From Gammaproteobacteria bacterium (GTDB taxonomy: Bacteria; Pseudomonadota; Gammaproteobacteria; Steroidobacterales; Foliamicaceae), in contig WTGP01000012.1 of assembly GCA_011523505.1 (NCBI GenBank), positions 1 through 64,000 of the forward strand: 64,000 bases of DNA. Reading direction: 5' to 3'. Below the pieces are notes generated by a model. The model did not search any database. It was not told where the DNA came from and saw nothing but the letters and a program-made list of their open reading frames with translations. Shown here piece by piece: positions 14,912 through 36,466 of the stretch; the stretch's first letter is position 1; each line of letters starts with the position of its first letter. The position numbers and the translations under genes are program-made.

Positions 14912-16057
14912 TCAGGCGGCCTGGTCGCTCTTTGCTGCGTCCGCGGATTTCGCGGGCACCAGCGGGATGGGGTCGATCACCCAGCCCTTTTTCCTGCGGC
15001 GGCCGGGGCTGGGGATGGCGAACGCGGTATGCTCGCCGGCCTTGCGGACCTTCTCCATGTCGATGCACCAGCCCCGCGCTTCCCATTCCGCGAGCCACTG
15101 GCGGTAGCGGCCCACCGCGTAGTCCGACGGTGTAAGCAGGTCCCTGGTGCTGGCCCGCGGCGCCAGTTTCGGATGCAGCGTAAGCAGAATGTCCCGATCC
15201 TGAAAAGCGACGTACTCATTGCGCTTCTTGACGGTCTCGTCATGCGCTTCGTCCTGCATGAAGTTGCGCATCGTGACCATGTACAGCCCCGTGCGGGTCT
15301 CATGTACGGGCACGCGGTAGAGGTACTGATAGATCTTCATTACCGGCGAGGGATTGATGTGTGTCCACACCGAAGCGGGCCCGTGATGGCCCGTGCCCAC
15401 GGTGATGGTGCTGTTCTTCTCCACTCGTGAGGCTTCCCGCATCCTCCTTTCAGGCAGCGGCGGCGCATAGACCTCGTTGTAGAAACCCGTGCCCCATTCC
15501 GTTTCCCGAATGTCCAGATCGCTTACCTTGTAGTTCTCGTCCTCTCCCTTCATGCCGTGGGTGTCGTGGACGAATTCGTTGTGCGCCGGGTCGATGCCGT
15601 TTTCCACGGCGCGCCTGTATTCAACTTCCCATTCGAAATACTGGAGCGTGGGTTGCCAGCCATCCCGGCCCCATTCGGGAATTTCAAGGATCGGCGGCCG
15701 TTCGGGTTCGTCGAGGTCGCCCAGGAAGCAGAACACCAGCCCGTAACGCTCCGTGACGGGGTAGGAATCTACCCGCGCCCGCCCGGGCGCCTTGGCCTTC
15801 ATGCCGATGGAGGGGACGCGCACGCATTGCCCCTCGCCGTTGAACCGCCAGCCGTGGTACGGACATTGGATGCAACTGTCTTCGACCAGGCCGTCGCCGA
15901 GCGAGCCGCCGCGGTGGCAGCAGGTATTGCTGAGGCAGTGGGCCTGTCCGTCCTCGTCGCGCCACAGCACGAAGTCCTGGCCCAGCATGCGCCTCTTCAG
16001 CGGCGCTCCTTCCAGTTTCCCGGACTCGACCGCGGGATACCAGAAATTGATGAACAT
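14912..16057 (-). CDS. Rieske ring-hydroxylating oxygenase alpha subunit, copy A
   Basis: 381-residue oxygenase component. The Rieske cluster ligands are C46-x-H48 (in NTCCHRGGSLGDG) and C65-x2-H68 (CPYHGW). The mononuclear iron site is in NGIDPAHNEFVHDTHG (D156, H159, H164). The C-terminal catalytic domain follows to about residue 350, then a basic tail (GRRRKKGWVID). It lies 4 bases downstream of a close paralogue, and both proteins end in DQAA. No reductase or ferredoxin gene is nearby, so electrons must come from elsewhere. The substrate (aromatic acid, quaternary amine or other) cannot be assigned. Confidence 0.9.
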   Translation of the reverse strand: MFINFWYPAVESGKLEGAPLKRRMLGQDFVLWRDEDGQAHCLSNTCCHRGGSLGDGLVEDSCIQCPYHGWRFNGEGQCVRVPSIGMKAKAPGRARVDSYPVTERYGLVFCFLGDLDEPERPPILEIPEWGRDGWQPTLQYFEWEVEYRRAVENGIDPAHNEFVHDTHGMKGEDENYKVSDLDIRETEWGTGFYNEVYAPPLPERRMREASRVEKNSTITVGTGHHGPASVWTHINPSPVMKIYQYLYRVPVHETRTGLYMVTMRNFMQDEAHDETVKKRNEYVAFQDRDILLTLHPKLAPRASTRDLLTPSDYAVGRYRQWLAEWEARGWCIDMEKVRKAGEHTAFAIPSPGRRRKKGWVIDPIPLVPAKSADAAKSDQAA

Positions 16058-16061
16058 GGGG

Positions 16062-17207
16062 TCAGGCGGCCTGGTCGGTCTCCACGGCCCGCGCCGGCGT
16101 GGCCGGCATCAGCGGGATGGGGTCGATCACCCAGCCCTTCTTCCTGCGCCGTTCCGGACTCGGTATGGCGAACGCGGTATGGCGTTCCTGCTCGCGAACC
16201 TTGTCCAGATCGATGCGCCAACCGCGCGCCTCCCATTCCTTCAGTCGTTCCCGGTAGCGCCCGATGGGGTAGTCCGAGGGAGTGAACAGTTCCTTGGTAT
16301 TGACCCGCGGCGTGATTTTCGGATGGAGTTCATACAGAACGTCGCGATCCTGGGTCGCCACGTACAGGTTGCGCTCCATCATGGTTTCGTCGTAGATGTC
16401 TTCCAGCATGAAGTTGCGCATGTTGACCAGGAACAGCCGCGTGTTGTCCTCGTCGATCGGCGATTCGTAAAGATACTGGTAGATGTGCATGACCGGAGTG
16501 GGATTGATGAAGGTCCACACGGAAGCCGGGCCGTGGTGGCCGGTGCCGACCCTGATCGTGCGGTTCTTTGTTTCGCCGGAAGCCTCGCGCATCTTCTTTT
16601 CGGCCAGGGGCGGCGCATAGACCTTGTTGAAGAAGCCCGTGCCCCAGTCGGTCTCGCGCATGTCCAGCTCGCGTACCTTGTAGTTCTCGTTCATGCCCTT
16701 CATGCCGTGGGTGGGATGCACGAACTCGTTATGCGCCGGGTCGATGCCGTTCTCGATCGAGCGCTTGTAGTTGAAGTTCCACTCCAATACCTGGAGGGTG
16801 GAGGCCCAGCCTTCCTGGCCCCACTCCTTGATCTCGAGCAACGGCGGCCGTTCCGACTCGTCGAGGTCGCCCAGAAAACAGAAAACCAGGCCGTAGCGTT
16901 CCATGACGGGATAGGAGTCAACCCGCGCCCGCCCGGGCGGCTTGGCCTTCATGCCGATGGAGGGCACGCGTACGCACTGCCCGGCGCCGTTGAATCGCCA
17001 GCCGTGGTACGGACATTGCACGCAGTTGTCGGCCACCAGGCCGTCGCCGAGAGAGCCGCCGCGGTGGCAGCAGGTATTGCTGAGGCAATGGGCCTGACCG
17101 TCCTCGTCGCGCCACAGCACGAAGTCCTGACCCAGCATGCGTTGCTTGAGCGGCTTGTCCTTGAGTTTCTCCGACTCGACCGCCGGATACCAGAAGTTGA
17201 TGAACAT
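16062..17207 (-). CDS. Rieske ring-hydroxylating oxygenase alpha subunit, copy B
   Basis: 381-residue tandem paralogue of the gene 4 bases downstream, identical in length. Rieske ligands are in NTCCHRGGSLGDG and CPYHGW; the mononuclear iron site is in NGIDPAHNEFVHPTHGMKG. The N-terminal 70 residues are nearly identical to copy A, while the catalytic domain differs more, as expected for duplication followed by substrate divergence. It is preceded by an FAD monooxygenase gene on the same strand (48-base gap containing a 17-bp tandem repeat), so the three form a probable catabolic operon. Confidence 0.9.
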   Translation of the reverse strand: MFINFWYPAVESEKLKDKPLKQRMLGQDFVLWRDEDGQAHCLSNTCCHRGGSLGDGLVADNCVQCPYHGWRFNGAGQCVRVPSIGMKAKPPGRARVDSYPVMERYGLVFCFLGDLDESERPPLLEIKEWGQEGWASTLQVLEWNFNYKRSIENGIDPAHNEFVHPTHGMKGMNENYKVRELDMRETDWGTGFFNKVYAPPLAEKKMREASGETKNRTIRVGTGHHGPASVWTFINPTPVMHIYQYLYESPIDEDNTRLFLVNMRNFMLEDIYDETMMERNLYVATQDRDVLYELHPKITPRVNTKELFTPSDYPIGRYRERLKEWEARGWRIDLDKVREQERHTAFAIPSPERRRKKGWVIDPIPLMPATPARAVETDQAA

Positions 17208-25047: not shown

Positions 25048-27519
25048 ATGAGATTCAGACTTGCCGTTATTTGCGTCCTTGCTGCGGGCGCGATCATTGC
25101 CCCGCGTCCCGCGGTCACGCAGGAAGCCATGCTTGAGGAAATCATCGTGACCGCCCGCAAGCGCGAGGAGTCCGTGCAGGACATCCCGATCGCGGTCAGC
25201 GCCTTTACAGCAAACGACATCCGCGAACTGGGCATCAGGTCCGTTAACGATATTGCGCTCTACACCCCGGGCTTCTCGTTCCAGTCCGGTTTCGGGCGCA
25301 GTTCCAACCAGGACAGGCCGGCCATGCGCGGACAAACCACGATCATTAACGGAATTGCCAACGTGAAGGCGGTGTCCACGTTTGTGGACGGCATCTATGT
25401 GGGCGGCAAGGTTTCGTCCGTCGATATTGCCAACATCGAGCGCGTCGAAATCATCAAGGGCCCGCAATCCGCGCAATACGGGCGGGGCACCTACGCCGGC
25501 GCCATCAACTACGTAACCCGGCGGCCTTCGGAAGAACTGGAAGGCGAAATCACCGTGGGCGGCGCCGAGCACGAATCCTATGAGGTGCAGGGCTGGATCA
25601 GCGGCCCGCTGATTGAAGATACCGCCTGGTTCCGGCTTGCGGCGGGCTACGACCAGTACGGCGGCGAGCACGTCAACACGCTCACCGGTGACGAGGTCAA
25701 CGAGGAAAAAACCACCAACATATCCGGCAAGCTGTTCTTCACGCCCAACGAGCGGTTCGAGGCCACGTTGGCGCTGTCCTACCAGAAGGTGGACGACAGC
25801 CACCCGGCCCTTGCCCTGCAAGCCCGCGAGCACAACAACTGCTGCTTTCGCGGCGAGTCCACCGGAAGCCCGATCATTACCGGCGTGACCGGCCCCAGGG
25901 CGCGCGAGTACTACATTGGCGAGGCCCTGCGCAATCTGCCGGTGGCCCTCAATACCGCGGAACTTGATTCCGACACCGGCGCGGGCAACCGCCTGGATCG
26001 GATTACCGCTTCGCTGACCATGCACTACGACCTGGCCAACGATTGGCGCGTGTCCAGCCTCACCGGCCTGATCGACGACGAGTCCGAAACGGGCCTTGAC
26101 GGAACCTACGGCGGCTACGATTTCGGGGTGGCCTGGGTTAACGGTTACCCGCCTTTCCTGCGTCCCGGCCTGGGCCGGTTATTTTGCGTAACAATCGGCT
26201 TCTGCGGCCAATTCAATCGCATACTTGGCAACGACCAGTCCGACTTCTCCCAGGAACTCCGGCTTTCGTCTCCCTCCGACCGCGCATTTCGGGCCACCAT
26301 CGGCCTCTACTACTACCGGGGCAAGCAACACGAATACCGAGACGACAAGGTGATGACGGAATCGGCCGCGGCCCTCAGCGACCTGTACGGCTGGGGTCTG
26401 GTGGCCAGGACAGTGTCGCCCAACTCCACCATCGACTACGACGACGTCACCAACACGGCCGTTTTCGCTGCCCTCGAATGGGACTTGAGCGACAAGTGGA
26501 CCGCCACGGCCGAGGCGCGCGCCGCGACCGATGAAATAACGCTTGCCGTTTATGAACCCGGCGGGGCAACGCTACGCGGCCGCTACGAAGCCGAGTTCGA
26601 TTCCGTCAATCCAAGATTCACGCTGAGCTACAAGGCGAATGAGAACGCGAATCTGTATCTGAATATCGCCAAGGGTTCCAAGCCCGGCGACTTCAACACC
26701 CAGGTTCCGACCGGCGCGGACGGCAGCCCCGATGAATCCTTCCGCGCCGTGGACGAAGAAGTCGCCTGGAACTACGAAGCGGGATACAAAACGCTGCTGA
26801 TGGACGGCAGGACGGCGCTCAACGTGGCCGCCTATCTGACTGAAGTGACCGACCAGCAGTTCACGACCGTGATCGAGACGCCCACCGGGGGCAGCGCGTC
26901 GCTGCTCGACAACGTGGGCGAGACCCGCGTTGCCGGCCTGGAGGTTGATCTTCAGACGGCGCTGACCGACCAGTTGGTCGTGAATATCGGCTATGCCTGG
27001 ACCAACGCGGAGATTCAGGAATACGTCAATATCGATCAGGCGGACCTTAACGGCGCCAACGGCTCGCGTCGCGACCTGGCCCGCCTTGGCTCGGTGGCAG
27101 GCCAAAAAGTGCCGCGGATACCCGAGCACATGGCCTCTGTGGTGGCGCGCTACAGCGGCAACGCCATGGCGAGTGGCTTTGCCTGGTTCTTCACCGGAGA
27201 CGTCGTTTACGAAGGCTCGCGCTTTTCGCAAATCCACAACCTGATCGAAACCGGTGCGCTCACCCGGGTTGGCTTGCGAATCGGCGTTCGTCGCGACAAC
27301 CTGGAAATCGCTCTTTGGGGCAAGAACCTGTTCGATGACGACACTCCTCTCGACATCCTGCGCTACATCGACCGGCGCTCCGGCGGTTTGCCCAGCCACG
27401 CGCGCATCCCCGGCTATGTCCCCGGCGAACTGGGCAATCCGTCCAGCACCCCGCGCGGCTTCGCCATCTCGCTGCCCCGCGGCCGCCAGATGGGCGTAAC
27501 CGTCACCTACGGTTTCTGA
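25048..27519 (+). CDS. TonB-dependent outer-membrane receptor
   Basis: 823-residue receptor. A signal peptide (about 1-24) is followed by the TonB box region EEIIVTARKREESVQDIPIAVS, a plug domain (about 45-160, with RGQTTIINGIANVKAVSTFVDGIYVG and YGRGTYAGAINYVTRRP), and a 22-strand barrel to the terminal Phe. It belongs to the large group with the VTARKREE box found in marine and aromatic- or steroid-degrading proteobacteria. Ligand unknown. GGGAGG precedes ATG 25048. It lies between a two-component system and a Rieske plus sterol-methyltransferase pair, so sterol-like or other hydrophobic ligands are possible, though siderophore or glycan uptake cannot be excluded. Confidence 0.93.
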   Translation: MRFRLAVICVLAAGAIIAPRPAVTQEAMLEEIIVTARKREESVQDIPIAVSAFTANDIRELGIRSVNDIALYTPGFSFQSGFGRSSNQDRPAMRGQTTIINGIANVKAVSTFVDGIYVGGKVSSVDIANIERVEIIKGPQSAQYGRGTYAGAINYVTRRPSEELEGEITVGGAEHESYEVQGWISGPLIEDTAWFRLAAGYDQYGGEHVNTLTGDEVNEEKTTNISGKLFFTPNERFEATLALSYQKVDDSHPALALQAREHNNCCFRGESTGSPIITGVTGPRAREYYIGEALRNLPVALNTAELDSDTGAGNRLDRITASLTMHYDLANDWRVSSLTGLIDDESETGLDGTYGGYDFGVAWVNGYPPFLRPGLGRLFCVTIGFCGQFNRILGNDQSDFSQELRLSSPSDRAFRATIGLYYYRGKQHEYRDDKVMTESAAALSDLYGWGLVARTVSPNSTIDYDDVTNTAVFAALEWDLSDKWTATAEARAATDEITLAVYEPGGATLRGRYEAEFDSVNPRFTLSYKANENANLYLNIAKGSKPGDFNTQVPTGADGSPDESFRAVDEEVAWNYEAGYKTLLMDGRTALNVAAYLTEVTDQQFTTVIETPTGGSASLLDNVGETRVAGLEVDLQTALTDQLVVNIGYAWTNAEIQEYVNIDQADLNGANGSRRDLARLGSVAGQKVPRIPEHMASVVARYSGNAMASGFAWFFTGDVVYEGSRFSQIHNLIETGALTRVGLRIGVRRDNLEIALWGKNLFDDDTPLDILRYIDRRSGGLPSHARIPGYVPGELGNPSSTPRGFAISLPRGRQMGVTVTYGF

Positions 27520-27529
27520 CCATACTCCC

Positions 27530-27557
27530 GGGGGAGGGCATCCCGCCGCCCTCCCCC
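27530..27557 (+). terminator. GC-rich hairpin after TonB receptor gene
   Basis: Ten bases after the receptor stop, GGGGGAGGGC (27530-27539) pairs perfectly with GCCCTCCCCC (27548-27557) around an 8-base loop. Outer arms ACTCCCGGG and CCCGGGAGT extend the structure, and a second palindrome GTGGGGGCATGTCCCCCAC follows near 27572-27590. There is no T tract, so it may slow polymerase or protect mRNA rather than act as a classical terminator. The rest of the 205-base gap holds a repeated CATGCCCCTCGC and nothing else recognisable. Confidence 0.5.
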
Positions 27558-27724
27558 CCGGCAACCCGGGAGTGGGGGCATGTCCCCCACGTCATGCCCC
27601 TCGCGGCAGGTTCCCAACGCCATGCCCCTCGCTGCGTCTCGCGCTCCTTCCCGCTCATGTTCCTGTATGCTTGGGCGAACAACCTGAAACATACGGCGAG
27701 CTGGTCAACAAGCGGGGGCTTTGA

Positions 27725-28804
27725 ATGAATCTGGCGAACAAGCGTTATTACCCGCCGGGCAGGTACCCGGAAGGCTGGTATCTAGTGGAGATCGCCAGGA
27801 ATTTGCCCAAGGGCGGACTTCTCCAGAAAGAATGGATGGGCCGGCAGATCGTGGCCTGGCGCGATGCCGAAGGAAGAATTTGCGTGTCCGAGGCCTACTG
27901 CCCGCATCTGGGCGGACACCTGGGGCCGGACGGCGGCGGTTGCGTCAGAAACGGGCGTCTTGTCTGTCCCTTCCACGGCTTCGAATACGACGCCACCGGC
28001 CGGTGCGTGGCCACGCCGAATGCGCCGCCGCCCAGAACGGCGCGGCTCACTGTGTATGAGACGCGCGAACTCAACGGCCTCATTCTCGCCTGGTGGAGCC
28101 CGGTGGGACGCGAACCGCAGTGGGAGCTCCCCGAGTGGCCGGACAAGGAATGGCACCGCCTCCACTACGGGAGCGTACGGCTGCGCGGCCACCCGCAGGA
28201 AACCGCGGAAAACTCCGTGGATATCGCCCATTTCCGCTACGTGCATGGCTACGCGGCGGTGAAGCAGGTCGGAGACGTGCAGGTGGACGGCGCCTACCTG
28301 TGCAACCGGTTTGTTTTCAGGCGCAACGTTAAGCTGCTTGGCCTGCCGGTTCTTACCGATGTTGCCGCGACAACCCATGTGTGGGGCCTCGGCTACTCCT
28401 TCGTCGAGTTTCATGAGCGCGTAAGCGGGCTGAAACTGCGCCAGTGGATCCTTTCCACGCCCATTGACGATACGCACATCAAGCTCGTGGTCGCCCTCCA
28501 GATCAGGCGTTGGGAACCCGGGCAGAAATGGCTGGCGACATTGCTGCTTCGGTGTCTTCCCGCGAACTGGCTGACCCGGTTCTTCGTATCGCGGGTCAAG
28601 CACGACGTGCGCCAGGACGTGGCCATCTGGGAGAACAAGCGCTACCAGCCGCTGCCCATCCTGAGCCGCTCGGACGGCGAGATCATGACGTACCGGAAAT
28701 ACTGCGAGCAGTTCTATCCGGACGCCGAAGAGAGCCGCGCGCGTGTGCGCAGCCTCAAGCCCGCCCCGATTCATGCCGCGCGCGGCGCCAGGCTGGGCGC
28801 CTGA
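27725..28804 (+). CDS. Rieske oxygenase, steroid/sterol-type
   Basis: 359-residue Rieske non-haem iron oxygenase. Cluster ligands are in YCPHLGGHLG (C-x-H) and CPFHGFEYD (C-x2-H); the mononuclear site is ENSVDIAHFRYVHGY. This site and the overall layout resemble the steroid-acting group: KshA (3-ketosteroid 9-alpha-hydroxylase), DAF-36/Neverland (cholesterol 7-desaturase) and perhaps the bacterial sterol C-4 demethylase SdmA; I cannot choose among them. A hydrophobic segment near residues 270-290 (WLATLLLRCLPANWLTRFF) could associate with membrane. The gene lies 45 bases before a sterol methyltransferase homologue on the same strand, which supports a sterol substrate. No reductase is adjacent. 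Confidence 0.84.
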   Translation: MNLANKRYYPPGRYPEGWYLVEIARNLPKGGLLQKEWMGRQIVAWRDAEGRICVSEAYCPHLGGHLGPDGGGCVRNGRLVCPFHGFEYDATGRCVATPNAPPPRTARLTVYETRELNGLILAWWSPVGREPQWELPEWPDKEWHRLHYGSVRLRGHPQETAENSVDIAHFRYVHGYAAVKQVGDVQVDGAYLCNRFVFRRNVKLLGLPVLTDVAATTHVWGLGYSFVEFHERVSGLKLRQWILSTPIDDTHIKLVVALQIRRWEPGQKWLATLLLRCLPANWLTRFFVSRVKHDVRQDVAIWENKRYQPLPILSRSDGEIMTYRKYCEQFYPDAEESRARVRSLKPAPIHAARGARLGA

Positions 28805-28849
28805 TCCCTCCCGGCGGCACAAAACCACTTCCAGGGAGACCCGCGCGCC

Positions 28850-29890
28850 ATGCCGGCGAAACTGCCCACGTCACTGAGGAACGCCTACAGGGGCTGGTCC
28901 GTCGCCAGCCGCGTCGAGTCGTTTGAAGGCTGGCTCGACAGGCGGGAAGGCGGCGACGCCGAAGACCGTGGTTATGACCATGCCGAGACGGTCAATGACT
29001 ACTACTCGCTGTGCAGCGAGTTCATGCAGTTCGGGTGGAACGAATCGCTGCACTTCGCCCCATTGAGGCCGGGCGAAAGCCTTGACGACTCGATCCTCCG
29101 GCATCAGCGGCTCATGATCGGCAAGCTCCGGCTCAAGGAGGGGATGACGGTCATTGACGTGGGGTGCGGAGTGGGCGGTCCGATGCGCCGGGTCGCCCGC
29201 GAGTCCGGCGCCCGCGTCGTCTGCCTCAACAACAACGAACAGCAACTGGAAAAGGCGAAGCGCAGGAACGTTGAAGCCGGTCTTGATCACATGGCGGACT
29301 ACGCCCACTGCAGCTTCATGGACATGAGCAGGTTCGGGCCCGACTCCTTCGACGCGGGCTATGCGATCGAGTCCACCTGCCATGCGCCGGACAAGAAGGG
29401 CGCTTTTGCCGAGATCTTCCGCGTGTTGAAGCCCGGGGCCTTGTTCTGGGGGCAGGAAATGTGCCTGACGAACAAGTTCGATCCGAACAGCGCCCGCCAC
29501 CGGGCCATCGAGCGCGAACTCATGCACGGGATCGCGTTGAACGGGATCGCAACCTTCGCGGAGGTCGATCGGGCGCTGGAGGCGGTGGGGTTCGAAGTGA
29601 TCGAGGGAATGGACAGGGCGACGCAGGAAGATCCGTACACCCCCTGGTATCAGCCTATGGAGGGAGAAACCGGGACGTTCCGGAACCTCCTGCGCAGGAC
29701 GCCTGCGGGCCGGAAGGCCATGATCGGCATGGTGAAGCTCACGGAGGCGGTCGGACTCTTCCCGAAGGGCTCCAACACGGTGGTCCGGCTCATGGACCGG
29801 ACCGCGGAGGCTTACGTTGCCGGCGGCAAGACCGGGATATTCACCCCGCTCTACTGTTTTCTCGCGCGCAAACCAGCGCGGACTGCTTGA
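28850..29890 (+). CDS. Sterol C-24 methyltransferase homologue (ERG6/SMT)
   Basis: 346-residue SAM-dependent methyltransferase matching eukaryotic sterol 24-C-methyltransferases along nearly its whole length. SAM motif I is VIDVGCGVGGPMRR (101-114) with LNNNEQQLEKAK after it. The sterol-binding segments are FGWNESLHFAPLRPGES (61-77; yeast YGWGSSFHF region) and YAIESTCHAPDKKG (171-184; yeast YAIEATCHAP). The C-terminal SMT domain is recognisable in YTPWYQPMEGE, LTEAVGLFPKGSNTV and VAGGKTGIFTPLYCFLARKP. The position of yeast Tyr81 is Met here. It would transfer methyl from SAM to the sterol side chain. Bacterial SMTs are rare. Codon use and GC resemble the neighbours, so any transfer is not recent. 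Confidence 0.86.
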   Translation: MPAKLPTSLRNAYRGWSVASRVESFEGWLDRREGGDAEDRGYDHAETVNDYYSLCSEFMQFGWNESLHFAPLRPGESLDDSILRHQRLMIGKLRLKEGMTVIDVGCGVGGPMRRVARESGARVVCLNNNEQQLEKAKRRNVEAGLDHMADYAHCSFMDMSRFGPDSFDAGYAIESTCHAPDKKGAFAEIFRVLKPGALFWGQEMCLTNKFDPNSARHRAIERELMHGIALNGIATFAEVDRALEAVGFEVIEGMDRATQEDPYTPWYQPMEGETGTFRNLLRRTPAGRKAMIGMVKLTEAVGLFPKGSNTVVRLMDRTAEAYVAGGKTGIFTPLYCFLARKPARTA

Positions 29891-29894
29891 GTCC

Positions 29895-29921
29895 GCCCGT
29901 ATGTGTGCCTCCCTCTCGTTG
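29895..29921. repeat. Truncated arm of the palindromic repeat
   Basis: This 27-base stretch (core TGTGTGCCTCCCTCTCGTTGG) matches one outer arm of the palindromic repeat copy at 37761-37878 far better than the arm of the full copy right beside it. It looks like the remnant of another copy that lost its core and second arm. It begins 5 bases after the sterol methyltransferase stop. Confidence 0.7.
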
Positions 29922-29924
29922 GGT

Positions 29925-30041
29925 GCTTCGATCCCGCCCCTTTTTGTGCCTTCCTCTCGTGGGAGACGCCATCCTGGCTCGGAATCGCTATCCTGCTTTT
30001 ACGCTCCCTCGAGAGGAAGGCACAAAAAGGGGCTACGGTGG
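29925..30041. repeat. Palindromic dispersed repeat, copy 1
   Basis: 117-base element with perfect 20-bp inverted arms (29940-29959 and 30010-30029; outer part CTTTTTGTGCC, inner part TTCCTCTCG) around a 50-base core containing GCTCGGAATCGCTATCCTGC. Conserved flanks are GCTTCGATCCCGCCC on one side and GGGCTACGGTGG on the other. The reverse complement recurs at 37761-37878. It fills the gap between the convergent sterol methyltransferase and RND-adaptor genes and could fold into a long hairpin, so a bidirectional terminator role is likely. It carries no open frame, so it would be a non-autonomous (MITE- or REP-like) element. Confidence 0.85.
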
Positions 30042-30045
30042 GTGC

Positions 30046-31131
30046 TTAGCCTGTGGTGTCGCGCTGGACCCTGACGTGTTGGCCGGGACTGACGAATTCC
30101 TGGCCCACCGTGATCAATGTGACTTCGGCCGGCAATCCGGAAACCCACAGGCCGTCCGGATCTTCCCGGACCACGTCGATCGGGTAGAAGAGAACCCGCT
30201 GATCGTCGTCAACGGCGCGCACGCCCATTTCTCCGTTGGCGTCCAGCACCACGTAGGACATCCCCACCTTGTGCGCCGGCTGGGCATGCAGGGCCACTTC
30301 GACTTCCGCGCTCAACCCCGAGGAAATCGAAAAGTCCGGGTTGGGGACCGTCACTTCGATGGGATAGGTGCGTGACTGGTCCGCCGACTGCTTGCCGATA
30401 AACGTAAGCGAGCCGCGGGCCGTGCCGCCGGTGGCCATCGTGATCCGCACTTCGGCGCCTAGGTCCAGTTGCGGATACTGCTGCTCCGTGACCGCGGCCT
30501 CCACGTAGATCGGATCGAGATCGAGAACGGTGGCGCAGGGGCTGCCCATCTGCAGGTAGTCGCCCACCTCCGCATGCGTCTCTTCCACGAAGCCGGCGAA
30601 CGGCGCAACCACGGCGGTATTCTCAAGTTCCAGTTCGCTGGCCAGGAGCTGGCGGCGCGCTGAACTCAACTGGGCCTTGGCCCGGGCGACCGCGATCTCC
30701 TGCTGCAGGCCCCTTTCGCGCAGGGTCTTCATGCCTTCGTACTCCAGCGTCGCCAGATCGACCGCGTCGCCGGCCTCGCGAACGCGCAGTGCGCGGTCAT
30801 TGACCTCCACCTGGCAAAGCACATCGCCCGCCGACACCTGCGCCCCGATATCGATCGGCCGGTCATCCACGCGGCCGGATGTTTCGGCGCGCACCGTCAC
30901 CGCATGCCGGGTTCGCGTGCGGCCGCGCAGCGTCAGCGTCCTGGATTGTTCCGAAGCTCGGCTGGTTCGTACCCGCACCACGATGTCATCCCGCGCTTGG
31001 GCGCGCGAGGCGACCGACGCCTGCCCGTCGTCGTCGCCGCCGCCCAGAATTCCGGACAGCAGCCATACGGCGCAAACTGCAAGGACCAGCCCGGCCCACA
31101 ATGGTTTGCGCAGGGATTCCCTGATTTTCAT
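30046..31131 (-). CDS. RND efflux periplasmic adaptor (MFP)
   Basis: 361-residue membrane-fusion protein. An N-terminal anchor (about residues 11-29, LWAGLVLAVCAVWLLSGIL) is followed by the lipoyl-type half-motif VRAETSGRVDDRPIDIGAQVSAGDVLCQVE, a short alpha-hairpin (about 115-170), the second half VVAPFAGFVEETHAEVGDYLQMG, and beta-barrel and membrane-proximal domains. It links an inner-membrane RND pump to an outer-membrane channel. It is the last gene of a three-gene operon with the GPP34-P450 fusion (34 bases upstream) and the RND permease; no TolC-like gene is present. The stop lies 4 bases from the palindromic repeat. Confidence 0.92.
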   Translation of the reverse strand: MKIRESLRKPLWAGLVLAVCAVWLLSGILGGGDDDGQASVASRAQARDDIVVRVRTSRASEQSRTLTLRGRTRTRHAVTVRAETSGRVDDRPIDIGAQVSAGDVLCQVEVNDRALRVREAGDAVDLATLEYEGMKTLRERGLQQEIAVARAKAQLSSARRQLLASELELENTAVVAPFAGFVEETHAEVGDYLQMGSPCATVLDLDPIYVEAAVTEQQYPQLDLGAEVRITMATGGTARGSLTFIGKQSADQSRTYPIEVTVPNPDFSISSGLSAEVEVALHAQPAHKVGMSYVVLDANGEMGVRAVDDDQRVLFYPIDVVREDPDGLWVSGLPAEVTLITVGQEFVSPGQHVRVQRDTTG

Positions 31132-31165: not shown

Positions 31166-33208
31166 TCAGAAGTCGTGACGCCTTTTGTCAATGGTAAATC
31201 GAAACTTGCTGTTCGGTGCGCTGGTGGGAAACGGATTGAATCTCATCTCATAGTCCGACGGAACGACGCTGATGTCGAAATAGTAGGCGATCAGGAGCAG
31301 GTTGATCGTCATTTGCAGTTCCACCCATTTCGACCCCAGGCAATGATGCGTCCCGAGCCCGAACGGCACGTATGCTCCCGCGCGCTTGTGCTCGTCCCGA
31401 GGCGGCGCGTAGCGGTCGATATCGAATTTTGTGGGATCGGGAAAAGTCTCTTCCAGGTGGTGCGCGGCGGTGTGCGCAAACACCACGCGAGTGTCCTTCG
31501 GAATGTTGTAGCCCTGCACCACGCAGTGGTTCATGGTGGTTCGAAGCTGCATCGGAATGACCGGATACAGGCGCTGGGACTCCAGGAACACCCGGTGGGC
31601 GACGTCGATCGCGGACCTCGTGAAATCGTCCTTGCCCGGGTCGCCGTTGGCGAACAGCGTTTCGGCTTCCTTCTGAACCCGGCGGTAGATTTCGGGATGG
31701 CTGGCCATGCCGTACACCGCGAAGCTCAGCCCGCTGCCGAGGTAAATGCTGGCGATGAAGCCCGCGACCAGCATGAAGCTCAGATCGGTCTCCGGGAAAT
31801 ACTGGGGATCGCTGGCGTGCAGGCTCAGAATATGATCGACCAGGTCCTTGGGTTTGCCTTTACGCTGCGCCGGCGTGTGCGCATTCAATACCCGGTTGAG
31901 CATCTCGAAAATGCGCTTCCTCTTCCTGGCCATGCCGGGCGTCTGCATCATGAATTTCGGCAGGGCTTTCTGCACTTGCGTGACCAGCGAGCGGTGTTCG
32001 TAGCTGAGGAGATCGTCGATATGGTCCGACGCGTCCACGCCCACCATGAGCTGCGACACCTGAACGCTCATCAGCTCCTGGCATGCGGCGGCGCCTGGCA
32101 TCGGTTGCCCCGGGACCCATTTCTCCAGTGACGCACGGCAGAATTTATATACTTCGTCCAGCCTCGCCTCCAGCGTCGCGCGGGAATAACCGGCGCGCAA
32201 GGACTTTCTCATTCGGTAATGCTCCGTGCCGTCCATGCCGGGCAAGGTCCGCGACGCACCGTACAGTTGCTCGAAGTCGGCCATGTGGTCCCGCGTGCGG
32301 AAATAGGTGCGGCCGTTGCGGTTGATCCATGCGTTGGTGTCCGGGCCGGCAAGCACGACAACGCCCTTTTCCGAGAAAGGCTTCTTGATCCTGAAAACCG
32401 GACCGTATTCCCTGTACAGGTCCGTCAGGATCCTTGAAAGGTTGCCCCGCCTCAGGTTTCGATTCGGAATCAGCTTCAGCAGGTTGGCGACCGGAATCGG
32501 CCGGGTGCGCCCTACGGGCTGCTGCACCGGGCGTCCCTGACTCTCCCTTACAGCCGCGCCGATGGCCCGTCCCACCAGGTCCATTTTGCAGAGCAGATCG
32601 ATGCGCTCGCGCGATTCCTCATACTCTTCTTCGGTGAGCAACAGCGGCAGGGCGTCGCATGCGGCAATCAGGCTGATCAGGATCACATCCCGGGGATCGG
32701 GAATCTCATCGTCCAGGATGGCGCGAAGGACGCGCGTCTTGACCTGCAGTTTGGTCGATCCGTCGTCCGCGGAGTACGTTCCGGTGCGCGATACCTGGCG
32801 GCTCAGGGACCAGAAGCCACCCGAATCGTGGTCCAGAATGTTCTTCTCGACCAGCCGGTCGAGGATGATGTCCATCGCGTCGTCCGATCGCTGCGCGGTC
32901 TTTTCGATCCAGTACTGGGCGTTGTGCACCGGCGGGGGCGCCGAGGCGATTTCCTCCAGCACCGGATCCAGCAGGGGGTCGCCCGTCTCCTTGGCGTCCA
33001 GGAGCGTAAGCGTCTCCGTATCGGTGTCGATGCGGAATTCGAGCGAAAGGTCCGCGAGCACCGAGCCCGCGATCACGCAGGACAGGTTCCAGGCGCCGAC
33101 GGGCTCGAAATAGCCGCTGTCTTCGTTAAGAAGAACCAGGGCCAACTCTTCTGCCAATCTCACAACTACCCCCGCAGTCGAATCAGTTGTCCATAAGACA
33201 CGGGTCAA
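31166..33208 (-). CDS. GPP34 domain-cytochrome P450 fusion
   Basis: 680-residue two-domain protein. Residues about 12-225 match the GPP34 (Golgi phosphoprotein 3) family: LAEELALVLLNED, the hydrophobic helix VIAGSVLADLSLEFRID, TGDPLLDPVLEEIA, RLVEKNILDHDSGGFW and DPRDVILISLIAACD. Eukaryotic GOLPH3 binds PI4P at membranes through this fold. Residues about 245-680 form a P450: K-helix ESQR (near E543), the FDIDRYAPPRDE segment and haem loop FGLGTHHCLG with ligand C623. The I-helix reads AGFIAS where AGxDTT is usual, so the acid-alcohol oxygen-activation pair is missing. It starts one base after the RND permease stop. I infer a membrane-docked oxidase of a lipid substrate; the fusion is unlike any P450 I know. 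Confidence 0.87.
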   Translation of the reverse strand: MTRVLWTTDSTAGVVVRLAEELALVLLNEDSGYFEPVGAWNLSCVIAGSVLADLSLEFRIDTDTETLTLLDAKETGDPLLDPVLEEIASAPPPVHNAQYWIEKTAQRSDDAMDIILDRLVEKNILDHDSGGFWSLSRQVSRTGTYSADDGSTKLQVKTRVLRAILDDEIPDPRDVILISLIAACDALPLLLTEEEYEESRERIDLLCKMDLVGRAIGAAVRESQGRPVQQPVGRTRPIPVANLLKLIPNRNLRRGNLSRILTDLYREYGPVFRIKKPFSEKGVVVLAGPDTNAWINRNGRTYFRTRDHMADFEQLYGASRTLPGMDGTEHYRMRKSLRAGYSRATLEARLDEVYKFCRASLEKWVPGQPMPGAAACQELMSVQVSQLMVGVDASDHIDDLLSYEHRSLVTQVQKALPKFMMQTPGMARKRKRIFEMLNRVLNAHTPAQRKGKPKDLVDHILSLHASDPQYFPETDLSFMLVAGFIASIYLGSGLSFAVYGMASHPEIYRRVQKEAETLFANGDPGKDDFTRSAIDVAHRVFLESQRLYPVIPMQLRTTMNHCVVQGYNIPKDTRVVFAHTAAHHLEETFPDPTKFDIDRYAPPRDEHKRAGAYVPFGLGTHHCLGSKWVELQMTINLLLIAYYFDISVVPSDYEMRFNPFPTSAPNSKFRFTIDKRRHDF

Positions 33209-36200
33209 TCATACGCCGGGAGAGCGGTCCGCGTAACTGTCTCCGCCGCGAAGCCGGACCGGCTTCGGCGCCCTGCTGCGCAGGTCCGTCAGAACACCCG
33301 AGAACATCCCCTTGAGCCGGCTCGGCAGCACCAGCAGCGCCGGCGTCAGGATCAGCGTCAGGATCGTGGCGAAGGTCAGTCCGGACACGACGGCCTGGGC
33401 CAGAGGCACCCAGTAACCCGAAAGCTCGCCTCCGGAGACCCACCTTCGGTTGATGAAATCCACCGATTGATGGCTGGCCAGCGGCAGCAGTCCGATCACG
33501 GTGGTGACGGTGGTGAGAAGCACCGGCCGCAGGCGCTGCAGTCCGGTAAGCACAATGAGTTCGCCGATGTCCCGGTCGGGAAATTCCCTGCGGCCCACGT
33601 TGTAGGTGTCGATCAGCACGATGTTGTTGTTCACGACGATGCCCGCCAGCGACACCACGCCCACCCCGCTCAATATCGCGCTGAACGGCTGGTTGGTGAT
33701 GACCAGCCCCAGAAACACTCCGGCCGTGGACAGCACGATCGCCAGCATGATCAGGAAGCTCTGGTAAATGTTGTTGAACTGCGTGACCAGCAACGCGAAC
33801 ATGAGCAGCAGCGCAAAGGAAAAGGCCTTGGAGAGAAAGTCGATCGACTCTTCCTGCTCCTCGGTCGTGCCGCGGAAGCGGATATCCACCTCCGAATCGA
33901 AAGTCTGGCTGTCCAGCCACGCCTGGATCTCCCGGATCTTGGCGTCCGGCAGCACGCCGGGCGCCACGCCGGCCCGGATCATGTGGATGTCCTCCTGGTC
34001 GGCCCGCTGGATGGTGTCCAGCCGGGGCGTCGCGCGCCGGGTGACGAAATTGGACAACGGCACAGGCCCGTTGCGGGTGACGATCCTCAGGTCGTCGAGT
34101 TCGTTGACGCCGCGGTCTTCGGTCGGGTAGCGGATCCTGATGTCCAGCGCATCGTCCGCGTCATCGGGGCGGTATTCGCCCAGCTTGGCGCCGTTCGTCA
34201 CGAGCTGCGTCGCCAGTCCAACGGTGGAGACGTCGGCGCCGTACAGGCCCGCCACGGCCCGGTCCACTTCCAGTTGCCATTCGATTCCGGGCACGGGAAG
34301 CGTGTCCTCGATGTCCCTCAGTCCTTCGACCTCGTTGACGATGTACTCGCGCACCCTTTCGACCACGGGAACAAGGCGCTCACGCTCATTGGAGGAGAAC
34401 TGCAGGGCGATCGGTTTGCCGGCGGTGATCTGGCTCTCGAACGGCCGCACTTCGATGATCACCCCGCCGAACCTCTCCGTTCGTCGCCGAACTTCCTCCA
34501 GCACTTCCATGCCGGTCGTGTCGCGCTGGCTGCTCTCGACCATCTCGACGAACATGGCGCCGATGCGGTCCGCGGTCGAGCCGCCCTGGTATTGCATCCG
34601 CTGTCCCTGGGCCTGGCCCGCGCCAGTCGTGGTGAACATGTTCAGGTTCTTGATGCCCGGGACCTCGAGGACCGCTGCCTCCACCTCGGCCACCAGCCGG
34701 TAGGCTTCCTCCACGTCCAGGTTGCCGCGGGCGCGCACGAACACCTGGGCGTAGGTGGGGTCGTTCTCGTTGAAGAAAAGCACGCCCAGGTCGCGCGAGC
34801 CATGCACCGTGAATATGCCCAGTACCAGCGCGATCACGATGGCGACCGTGACCAGGGGACGGCGCACGGCCAGCGCAAGCAGGCGGCCGTAGCCGCGCGC
34901 GAAACGGCCCAGCCGCGACCAGTCCAGTTCCCACATGCTGTCCGCGCCCGCCGCCGCCACGGCGGATACGAGGCTTCGGCGCCGGAACGTCGTGCCCAGG
35001 ACCGGGGCGAATATCAACGCGTAGAGCAGCGCTCCGATCAGCACCCACAGCAGGGTAATGGGCAGGTATCCCATGAAGGCGCCGGCCACGCCGGGCCAGA
35101 ACATCAGCGGCACGAAGGCCGCCAGGGTGGTCGCGGTGGAGGCCAGCACGGGCAGGAACATGCGCTTGGCGGCCGCCCCATAAGCCTCAAGTTCGGTTTC
35201 GCCTTCCGTGATTCGCCGTTCGGCATCCTCGGTGACCACGATGGCGCCGTCGATCAGCATGCCCAGACCCAGCAGCATGCCGAACATGACCATGAAGTTG
35301 AACGAGTGGCCGAACAGCCACAGGAAGATCAGCGCGAACAGGAACGAAACCGGGATGGCGCCGGCCACCAACAAGCTGCTCCTCAGGCCCATGGCCGGGA
35401 ATATGACCAGCATCACCAGCACCAGAGCGGTCACGATGTTCCCCTGCAATTCGACGATCTGCTTGGCGGCGAACTGGGACGTGTCCTGGGAATAGAACAT
35501 GTTGACGCCCGCGGGCAGCCGATCGCGGAAACCGTCCGCCACTTCTCGGACCGCGGTTGCCGTTTCGATGCTGTTTGCGCCCGAACGCCGGTACACGAAC
35601 ACCGATATGGAACGCTCGCCGTTGGCGTGGGAGTAGCTGGCCCGGTCCTTGAACGTGCGCCTCACCGAGGCCACGTCGCTCAAGGTCACGACCGTGTCGC
35701 CTTCGATGCGCACCGGAATGTCGAGCAGGTCGTCCGTGGATTCGATGACGCTGGGCACCTTGACCGAGACGCTCCCCTGGGCGGAATCCATCGCGCCCGC
35801 CGCGATCAGCCGGTTGTTGCGCGTCAGCGCCCCGTAGAGCTCCTCCACGGACATCCGGTAGGTCGCGAGCTGCTCCGGCCGGATGAGGATTTCCATGAAC
35901 TCCTCGCGGTGCCCCTGCAGCGCCGCCAATTGCACCTGGCCTACCGTTTCGATCCGGTCGCGAAGGCTGCGCGCGGTGGCGTAGAGAGTTTCCTCCGGTG
36001 TATTGCGTCCTACCAGGTTGATCTGCAGCACGGGGTAGTCGGTGGTCGCGGTCTCCTCGACGATCGGCTCCTCCGTCGTGGACGGGAACTCGGGCTTGGC
36101 CCGATTCACGGCCTCGCGCACGTCGCTCAGTGCTACGTCGAGGTCGATTCCCGTCTGGAACTCCACCCCCACCATGGCCATGTTCTCGGCGCCCGTGCCG

Positions 36201-36466
36201 GTGATTTCCCGGACGCCTTCAACGGCCTTGAGCTCGATTTCCAGCGGCAGGATCAGCAGCCGCCGGGCGTCTTCCGGAGAGATGCCCTCGTGAACGACCG
36301 TGATGACGTAGAACGGGATTTCGATGCGGGGTTCGCTCTCGACCGGGATCGACACGCGCGCGACGATCCCGAAGATCACGATGCCGATCATCGCCAGCAG
36401 CGTGGACCGCCGACGCTCAAGCGATAAATCGATGATCCTGTCTTTCATGCGAAATGGCGCCGCCAC
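33209..36466 (-). CDS. RND-family efflux permease (HAE1-like)
   Basis: 1085-residue proton-driven inner-membrane transporter with the duplicated RND layout: TM1 (TLLAMIGIVIFGIVA), a large porter loop, TM2-6 (about 335-490), TM7 (about 540), a second loop and TM8-12 (about 880-1040). TM4 reads GMLIDGAIVVTEDAERR, so the AcrB Asp pair D407-D408 is D-G here; TM10 has GIVVNNNIVLID where AcrB has Lys940. Start options are GTG 36466 and ATG 36448 (1079 residues); neither has a clear ribosome site. It is the first gene of an operon with the GPP34-P450 fusion and an adaptor. The substrate may be the P450 product; bacterial sterol transport by an RND protein (BstA) is a known precedent. Confidence 0.93.
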   Translation of the reverse strand: MAAPFRMKDRIIDLSLERRRSTLLAMIGIVIFGIVARVSIPVESEPRIEIPFYVITVVHEGISPEDARRLLILPLEIELKAVEGVREITGTGAENMAMVGVEFQTGIDLDVALSDVREAVNRAKPEFPSTTEEPIVEETATTDYPVLQINLVGRNTPEETLYATARSLRDRIETVGQVQLAALQGHREEFMEILIRPEQLATYRMSVEELYGALTRNNRLIAAGAMDSAQGSVSVKVPSVIESTDDLLDIPVRIEGDTVVTLSDVASVRRTFKDRASYSHANGERSISVFVYRRSGANSIETATAVREVADGFRDRLPAGVNMFYSQDTSQFAAKQIVELQGNIVTALVLVMLVIFPAMGLRSSLLVAGAIPVSFLFALIFLWLFGHSFNFMVMFGMLLGLGMLIDGAIVVTEDAERRITEGETELEAYGAAAKRMFLPVLASTATTLAAFVPLMFWPGVAGAFMGYLPITLLWVLIGALLYALIFAPVLGTTFRRRSLVSAVAAAGADSMWELDWSRLGRFARGYGRLLALAVRRPLVTVAIVIALVLGIFTVHGSRDLGVLFFNENDPTYAQVFVRARGNLDVEEAYRLVAEVEAAVLEVPGIKNLNMFTTTGAGQAQGQRMQYQGGSTADRIGAMFVEMVESSQRDTTGMEVLEEVRRRTERFGGVIIEVRPFESQITAGKPIALQFSSNERERLVPVVERVREYIVNEVEGLRDIEDTLPVPGIEWQLEVDRAVAGLYGADVSTVGLATQLVTNGAKLGEYRPDDADDALDIRIRYPTEDRGVNELDDLRIVTRNGPVPLSNFVTRRATPRLDTIQRADQEDIHMIRAGVAPGVLPDAKIREIQAWLDSQTFDSEVDIRFRGTTEEQEESIDFLSKAFSFALLLMFALLVTQFNNIYQSFLIMLAIVLSTAGVFLGLVITNQPFSAILSGVGVVSLAGIVVNNNIVLIDTYNVGRREFPDRDIGELIVLTGLQRLRPVLLTTVTTVIGLLPLASHQSVDFINRRWVSGGELSGYWVPLAQAVVSGLTFATILTLILTPALLVLPSRLKGMFSGVLTDLRSRAPKPVRLRGGDSYADRSPGV

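Follow-up and report, generated by a model that had tools for sequence, protein, structure and literature searches.

Our analysis of a 64,000-nucleotide stretch of bacterial DNA (the window) makes it reasonably probable that two adjacent genes in it, for a Rieske oxygenase and an ERG6-like methyltransferase (SMT2), belong to a sterol-tailoring and sterol-transport cassette that is spread across apparently sponge-associated bacteria. Judging from gene content, this cassette probably tailors sterols that are home-made in some carriers and come from the host or from neighbours in others.

Results

The Rieske-SMT2 pair

The original prediction placed a Rieske oxygenase 45 bases before a sterol methyltransferase on the same strand, and both open reading frames were found in exactly this arrangement (Table 1). 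The iron-site motif that it named, ENSVDIAHFRYVH, is present, and the ligands are invariant in 51 relatives of the Rieske protein: C59, H61, C81 and H84 of the cluster, H169, H174 and D298 of the iron (the KshA iron triad of PMC4064121 serving for comparison), together with the bridging D166. In Pfam, the Rieske protein (359 aa) matched the Rieske (67 bits) and KshA_C domains (94.8 bits, cut-off 23.3), and SMT2 (346 aa) a methyltransferase domain and Sterol_MT_C (66.2 bits, cut-off 21.7); all Pfam domains of the two proteins exceed the curated cut-offs. As read from sequence, both members of the pair are intact: a Rieske oxygenase that belongs to the KshA side of its family and a SAM-dependent methyltransferase of the SMT type. 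No promoter-like site was found in positions 27400-30200, which is weak evidence in either direction, and no dedicated reductase gene adjoins the Rieske gene.

Table 1. Coordinates of the genes of the locus and of the sterol cyclase fusion elsewhere in the genome
Feature	Position	Strand	Basis or remark
TonB-dependent receptor	25048..27519	+	Pfam Plug and TonB_dep_Rec; place in module uncertain
Rieske non-heme iron oxygenase, KshA-like C-terminal domain, module clade	27725..28804	+	Pfam, tree, model
SMT2, sterol-methyltransferase-like, divergent Region I (FMQFGWNESLHFAP)	28850..29890	+	Sterol_MT_C 66 bits, motif, own clade
RND periplasmic adaptor (membrane fusion protein)	30046..31131	-	TIGR01730 141.7 bits, synteny; convergent with SMT2
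GPP34-P450 fusion	31166..33208	-	Pfam GPP34 117 bits, p450 150 bits
RND inner-membrane transporter	33209..36466	-	ACR_tran 502 bits
SQE::OSC fusion	L018:10284-13733 (G000:C45:168283-171732)		single 1149-residue ORF

The pair is preserved in the closest relatives with 94-97% identity, and direct adjacency on the same strand occurs again in Nitrospira, Nitrospirales and two Nitrospinota loci, where the identities are 53-55% for the Rieske protein and 66-70% for the SMT. Such retention in close relatives, combined with renewed adjacency in these other groups, argues that the pair is not due to chance.

Placement of the Rieske oxygenase

For the Rieske protein, KshA ranked first both in the profile search and in the comparison of the AlphaFold model (4qdc: Z 30.3, 317 residues, rmsd 3.3). 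A quick maximum-likelihood tree (105 rows) united all 80 module Rieske proteins in one clade (support 96). A supported branch (96) placed this clade on the same side as KshA and left SdmA and the two other Rieske proteins of the window outside; the three KshA or KshA-like references formed a separate clade (98), so that the module protein does not nest among characterised KshA. Long branches were flagged by the program, which leaves the finer relations in this tree uncertain. The predicted resemblance to steroid-acting enzymes therefore held for KshA and did not extend to SdmA: the protein scored 43 bits against the SdmA equivalog (cut-off 600; the SdmA-like protein of the same genome reached 403 bits), and this score together with the separate clade across the supported branch rules out an SdmA. 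An aromatic or amine oxygenase, the grouping that would have counted against a steroid-type enzyme, is disfavoured by the tree, Pfam and the fold ranking. The two other Rieske proteins, of a different type, are encoded in tandem on the minus strand (14912-16057 and 16062-17207) next to a FAD-dependent protein, and fall outside the module/KshA side of the tree.

A divergent methyltransferase

SMT2 contains the SAM-binding motif DVGCGVGGP. In the SMT tree, where the yeast ERG6 row is approximate and serves as a guide only, the window-type SMTs formed one clade (100) apart from SMT1, the canonical SMT. Region I of SMT2 reads mostly FM[VQ][FWY]GW[GSN]ESLHFAP, versus F[YF]E[YFW]GWGxSFHFAP; the canonical Y-E-x-G-W-G is absent, nearly all SMT2 proteins having other residues, mostly Met-Val/Gln, in place of Tyr-Glu; one member, that of locus L084, retains the Glu. 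SMT1 of the same genome has YEWGWGKSFHF at this position. Titles of works cited in PMC10070321 connect Region I residues with the binding of sterols and with further methyl transfers. Given the replacement of Tyr-Glu, the methylation site or the substrate of SMT2 may differ from those of the known C-24 enzymes. Nearly all sterol-making carriers searched have at least two SMTs, typically one SMT1 and one SMT2, and a search for SMT2 in viral contigs gave no matches. In a closed Nitrospirales genome (G097, 2285559-2286282), a gene of the FA_hydroxylase family, to which ERG3 and ERG25 belong, adjoins SMT2.

The wider locus and the GPP34-P450 fusion

The block from the TonB receptor to the RND transporter is syntenic in two genomes of the same genus, mostly with 94-100% identity. 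The TonB receptor, present in one copy here, is found as two copies in tandem in two close relatives (G002 and G003); outside the genus, it rarely lies close to the Rieske gene. The families of the TonB receptor, the RND transporter and the adaptor are general ones without specificity for sterols. The closed chromosome of G005 carries the Rieske gene at a distance of about 15 kb from an RND/GPP34-P450/adaptor/SMT2 block. In G008 (L022, G008:C114, 946-3227), the Rieske gene is followed directly by a moeA homologue and the SMT2-to-RND block is missing there, which suggests that this block can move or be lost as one unit.

The GPP34-P450 protein has 680 residues and combines an N-terminal Golgi-phosphoprotein-3-like domain (about 18-222), assigned by Pfam only (117 bits), with a C-terminal cytochrome P450 (about 249-660). 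The heme cysteine C622 and the ExxR residues E542 and R545 are invariant in an alignment of 49 homologue rows, and the structural model confidently shows the fold of a P450; in the fold comparison, CYP46A1, CYP184A1, CYP170A1 and CYP51 are tied. The I-helix of most members has ASxYLG, versus AGxxT in CYP51, and AGHYT occurs in three of the members printed; loss of the I-helix threonine could indicate an unusual chemistry. That the protein is itself a CYP51 is ruled out by this differing motif and by the separate CYP51-like gene of the sterol cluster described below.

Conservation across phyla

The Rieske alignment, seeded with eight sequences of one order, was scanned against 84,980 species genomes, many MAGs being incomplete, and gave 314 relatives, the best 80 of which were used for all counts of neighbouring genes. 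These 80 come from about ten phyla and mostly from MAGs that look sponge-associated; their labels include Gamma- and Alphaproteobacteria, Chloroflexi/SAR202/Dehalococcoidia, Acidobacteria, Nitrospira, Nitrospinota, Gemmatimonadota, Latescibacterota, Binatia, Acidimicrobiia and others. Many of the isolate names presumably belong to sponge projects (Rhopaloeides, Coscinoderma, Ircinia, Aplysina). All four of these genera are listed as hosts by Robbins et al. (PMC8163846).

Of these best 80 loci, 61 have GPP34-P450 and 33 have SMT2 at no more than about 10 kb from the Rieske gene. An RND transporter lies near the Rieske gene in about 28-30, and one of the MMPL type in others; clustering gave adaptors in 21 loci, outer-membrane factors in 21 and MMPL transporters in 21 plus 10. 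By chance, one specific gene would lie within 20 kb in a 3-Mb genome in fewer than one case in 80. The MMPL partners match the Sterol-sensing and Patched domains, with weak matches also to HpnN and BstA. Thus, both the pair whose conservation was in question and a larger module around it recur across phyla: in terms of predicted proteins, a GPP34 domain joined to a P450 whose ExxR and heme cysteine are conserved, and an RND pump with its adaptor, are co-located with it. Neither of the two outcomes that were to refute the original prediction was thus observed. A flavin amine-oxidase-like protein also recurs near the module, in 31 of the 80 loci and in many phyla (e.g. L030:6143-7582). Among 58 genomes of the order to which the bacterium belongs, close Rieske relatives occur in 8, GPP34-P450 in 11 and SQE::OSC in 9; two genera, g1 and g18, account for all of these. 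The module adjoins a sterol cluster in three other loci, those of Nitrospira SB0662_bin_26 (L034), of Nitrospirales Plut_88904 (L050) and of a Dehalococcoidia (L101).

Sterol synthesis in this genome and in other carriers

A cyclase-family search of the bacterium's own genome gave one match, on contig C45, within a cluster whose genes encode, in this order, an SDR resembling SdmB (297 bits), a Rieske protein resembling SdmA (403 bits), a reductase of the ERG4/ERG24 family (247 bits), a P450 resembling CYP51 and an SQE::OSC fusion (osq_cycl 749 bits), with SMT1 on the opposite strand. The SdmA, SdmB and osq_cycl scores are below the curated cut-offs and denote strong-similarity homologues, not formal equivalogs. 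The fusion protein has a squalene epoxidase at its N-terminus and an oxidosqualene cyclase with the DCTAE motif at its C-terminus, and matches within the order span essentially its whole length. All 24 OSC loci inspected (L106-L120 and L149-L157, from 15 carriers and from 9 genomes within the order, with one genome in both sets) lie in open frames of about 1120-1180 residues in several phyla, consistent with a conserved SQE::OSC fusion. Among the titles listed in a literature search, none suggested a bacterial SQE-OSC fusion. No ERG2-type isomerase matched in the sterol-making carriers, the control likewise being without any match. Another contig (L181:9019-10329, G000:C27) carries a second reductase of the ERG4/ERG24 type, directly preceded by an SDR, and weaker members of this family occur also in carriers without OSC.

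The original prediction noted that cyclase and epoxidase are missing and took this as a sign that a pre-made sterol is modified. The absence holds within the window only; in the genome, both activities are predicted in the single fused frame on C45, and at this scale their absence fails as evidence for an imported sterol. On paper, this bacterium carries sterol-making genes (homologues of SQE::OSC, SdmA and SdmB, ERG24, CYP51 and SMT1) and need not rely only on ready-made sterols. A pre-made sterol is still a reasonable idea for other carriers: of 50 carrier genomes tested, OSC was found in 15 (70-83% identity), which leaves 35 without it. Where inspected, the weaker cyclase matches of carriers had the squalene-hopene cyclase motif (DxDD). 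Six closed module-bearing chromosomes lack OSC (Binatia, Bryobacterales, Acidimicrobiales, Longimicrobiales, Nitrospirales and Dehalococcoidia); two of them, Nitrospirales L082 and Dehalococcoidia L096, keep SMT2, and no SMT of any kind was found in the other four (L040, L070, L072 and L075). With 35 of 50 carriers lacking OSC and four closed OSC-less genomes lacking SMT, the Rieske/P450 core may have a non-sterol substrate.

Discussion

The presence and the conservation of these genes are established, and from them we infer every substrate, product and order of steps in the following route. The feedstock would here probably be the bacterium's own sterol, made by the SQE::OSC cluster of C45 (or a sterol taken up), and in carriers without a cyclase it would, provided that it is a sterol, have to be supplied by the host, the diet or neighbours. 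The Rieske protein would then oxidise or desaturate the sterol nucleus, and SMT2 would methylate the side chain, after or besides SMT1. A further change would be made at the membrane by the GPP34-P450, the GPP34 domain of which may hold the P450 there, and an RND or MMPL pump would finally move the product to the outer membrane or out of the cell.

The KshA kinship of the Rieske protein would fit sterol breakdown as well. In that case the enzyme, as a divergent 3-ketosteroid 9-alpha-hydroxylase, would open the steroid ring to support growth, the P450 would start the attack on the side chain and the TonB and RND proteins would take the sterols up. KshA does provide the closest solved structures and the Pfam domain of the Rieske protein; moreover, Holert et al. 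(PMC5790920) obtained sterol-degrading isolates from sponges and described a KshA cluster to which only proteins from sponge MAGs belong. Nevertheless, a methyltransferase that adds carbon does not suit breakdown, and the module Rieske clade is separate from the KshA references. The genome itself has one KstD-like protein (41%, G000:C13) with no visible KshA- or Hsa-type neighbours, no KstD match was found in 9 of the 18 carriers searched, neither KstD nor Hsa was found near the module, and CYP125 is absent among the listed best matches of the P450. Taken together, we regard a role in catabolism as unlikely.

Alternatively, the product of the module might not be a sterol but another lipid (hopanoid, carotenoid, polyketide or meroterpenoid), in which case the similarity to sterol enzymes would reflect ancestry only. 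This would agree with the several carriers that have a squalene-hopene cyclase and no OSC, with the loss of the canonical Region I residues from SMT2 and with a P450 I-helix that usually lacks the catalytic threonine. SMT2, however, retains the C-terminal domain of sterol methyltransferases, the module adjoins sterol clusters in three loci and many carriers show no cyclase match whatever, so that we see only a slim chance for such a product. A module that works on exogenous sterols only, the bacterium's own de novo cluster serving another purpose, would be in line with the many OSC-less carriers, closed chromosomes of six groups included, and with the TonB receptor upstream of the pair here, but it appears a rather improbable alternative, since in the order the module is confined to the two genera that carry the de novo pathway and the two clusters lie side by side in three other loci.

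The tailoring of sterols, whether home-made or acquired, therefore remains our preferred reading. Side-chain alkylated sterols serve as molecular fossils of the oldest animals. In 2023, the enzyme for the C-26 methyl group was listed as undiscovered (PMC10070321). It is a long shot, but SMT2 might be the missing sponge-associated methyltransferase that alkylates the sterol side chain elsewhere than in the usual first C-24 step, for example at C-26, and might together with the Rieske protein and the GPP34-P450 yield the unusual sponge sterols behind 26-methylstigmastane and aplysterol side chains, from a sterol often borrowed from the host. A second, divergent SMT clade within an oxygenase/P450/transporter cassette that is conserved in many sponge-associated phyla provides named candidates for the C-26 step. 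Sterol modification may also be a common trait of sponge-associated symbionts, partly uncoupled from synthesis. In addition, our analysis draws attention to the fusion of a P450 with a Golgi-phosphoprotein-type domain, a combination for which a limited literature search found no relevant description in bacteria.

Comparison with known systems

Several known systems resemble parts of the cassette. The module Rieske protein shares with KshA the Rieske and KshA_C domains, the iron ligands, the fold and the side of the tree, but it forms its own clade, has about 25% identity over the aligned structure and appears to lack the context of a 9,10-seco pathway, adjoining a methyltransferase and a P450 instead. 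Like SdmA, it would be a bacterial Rieske oxygenase acting on sterols. Since Neverland is reported to cluster with KshA (PMC4064121), the module protein may also lie in the neighbourhood of DAF-36/Neverland, the cholesterol 7-desaturase, which is an animal enzyme whereas the module protein is bacterial.

Sponge metagenomes have yielded bacterial SMTs able to alkylate at C-24 (PMC10070321). The SMTs of Brown et al. 2023 (24 tested; PMC10070321) share with SMT2 the domain architecture and the origin in bacteria and sponge-associated metagenomes; by comparison, the SMT2 clade of the window is separate from the SMT1 of the sterol cluster and has mostly FM[VQ]xGW[GSN]ESLHF in Region I versus F[YF]ExGWGxSFHF. 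The accessible part of the report on Ircinia symbiont clusters (PMC9531527) does not describe a Rieske/GPP34-P450/SMT2 module or an SQE fusion, but it gives the same gene order as C45, namely DFR (SdmB-like), a hypothetical protein (SdmA-like), ERG24, CYP51 and LSS, with the SMT likewise on the opposite strand. Finally, in the Bst sterol transport system of methanotrophs, RND-type transporter genes also lie beside sterol genes, and BstA is a putative RND sterol transporter with a periplasmic part that binds 4-methylsterols (PMC10942540). The RND transporter of the window differs in being an AcrB-type pump with an adaptor.
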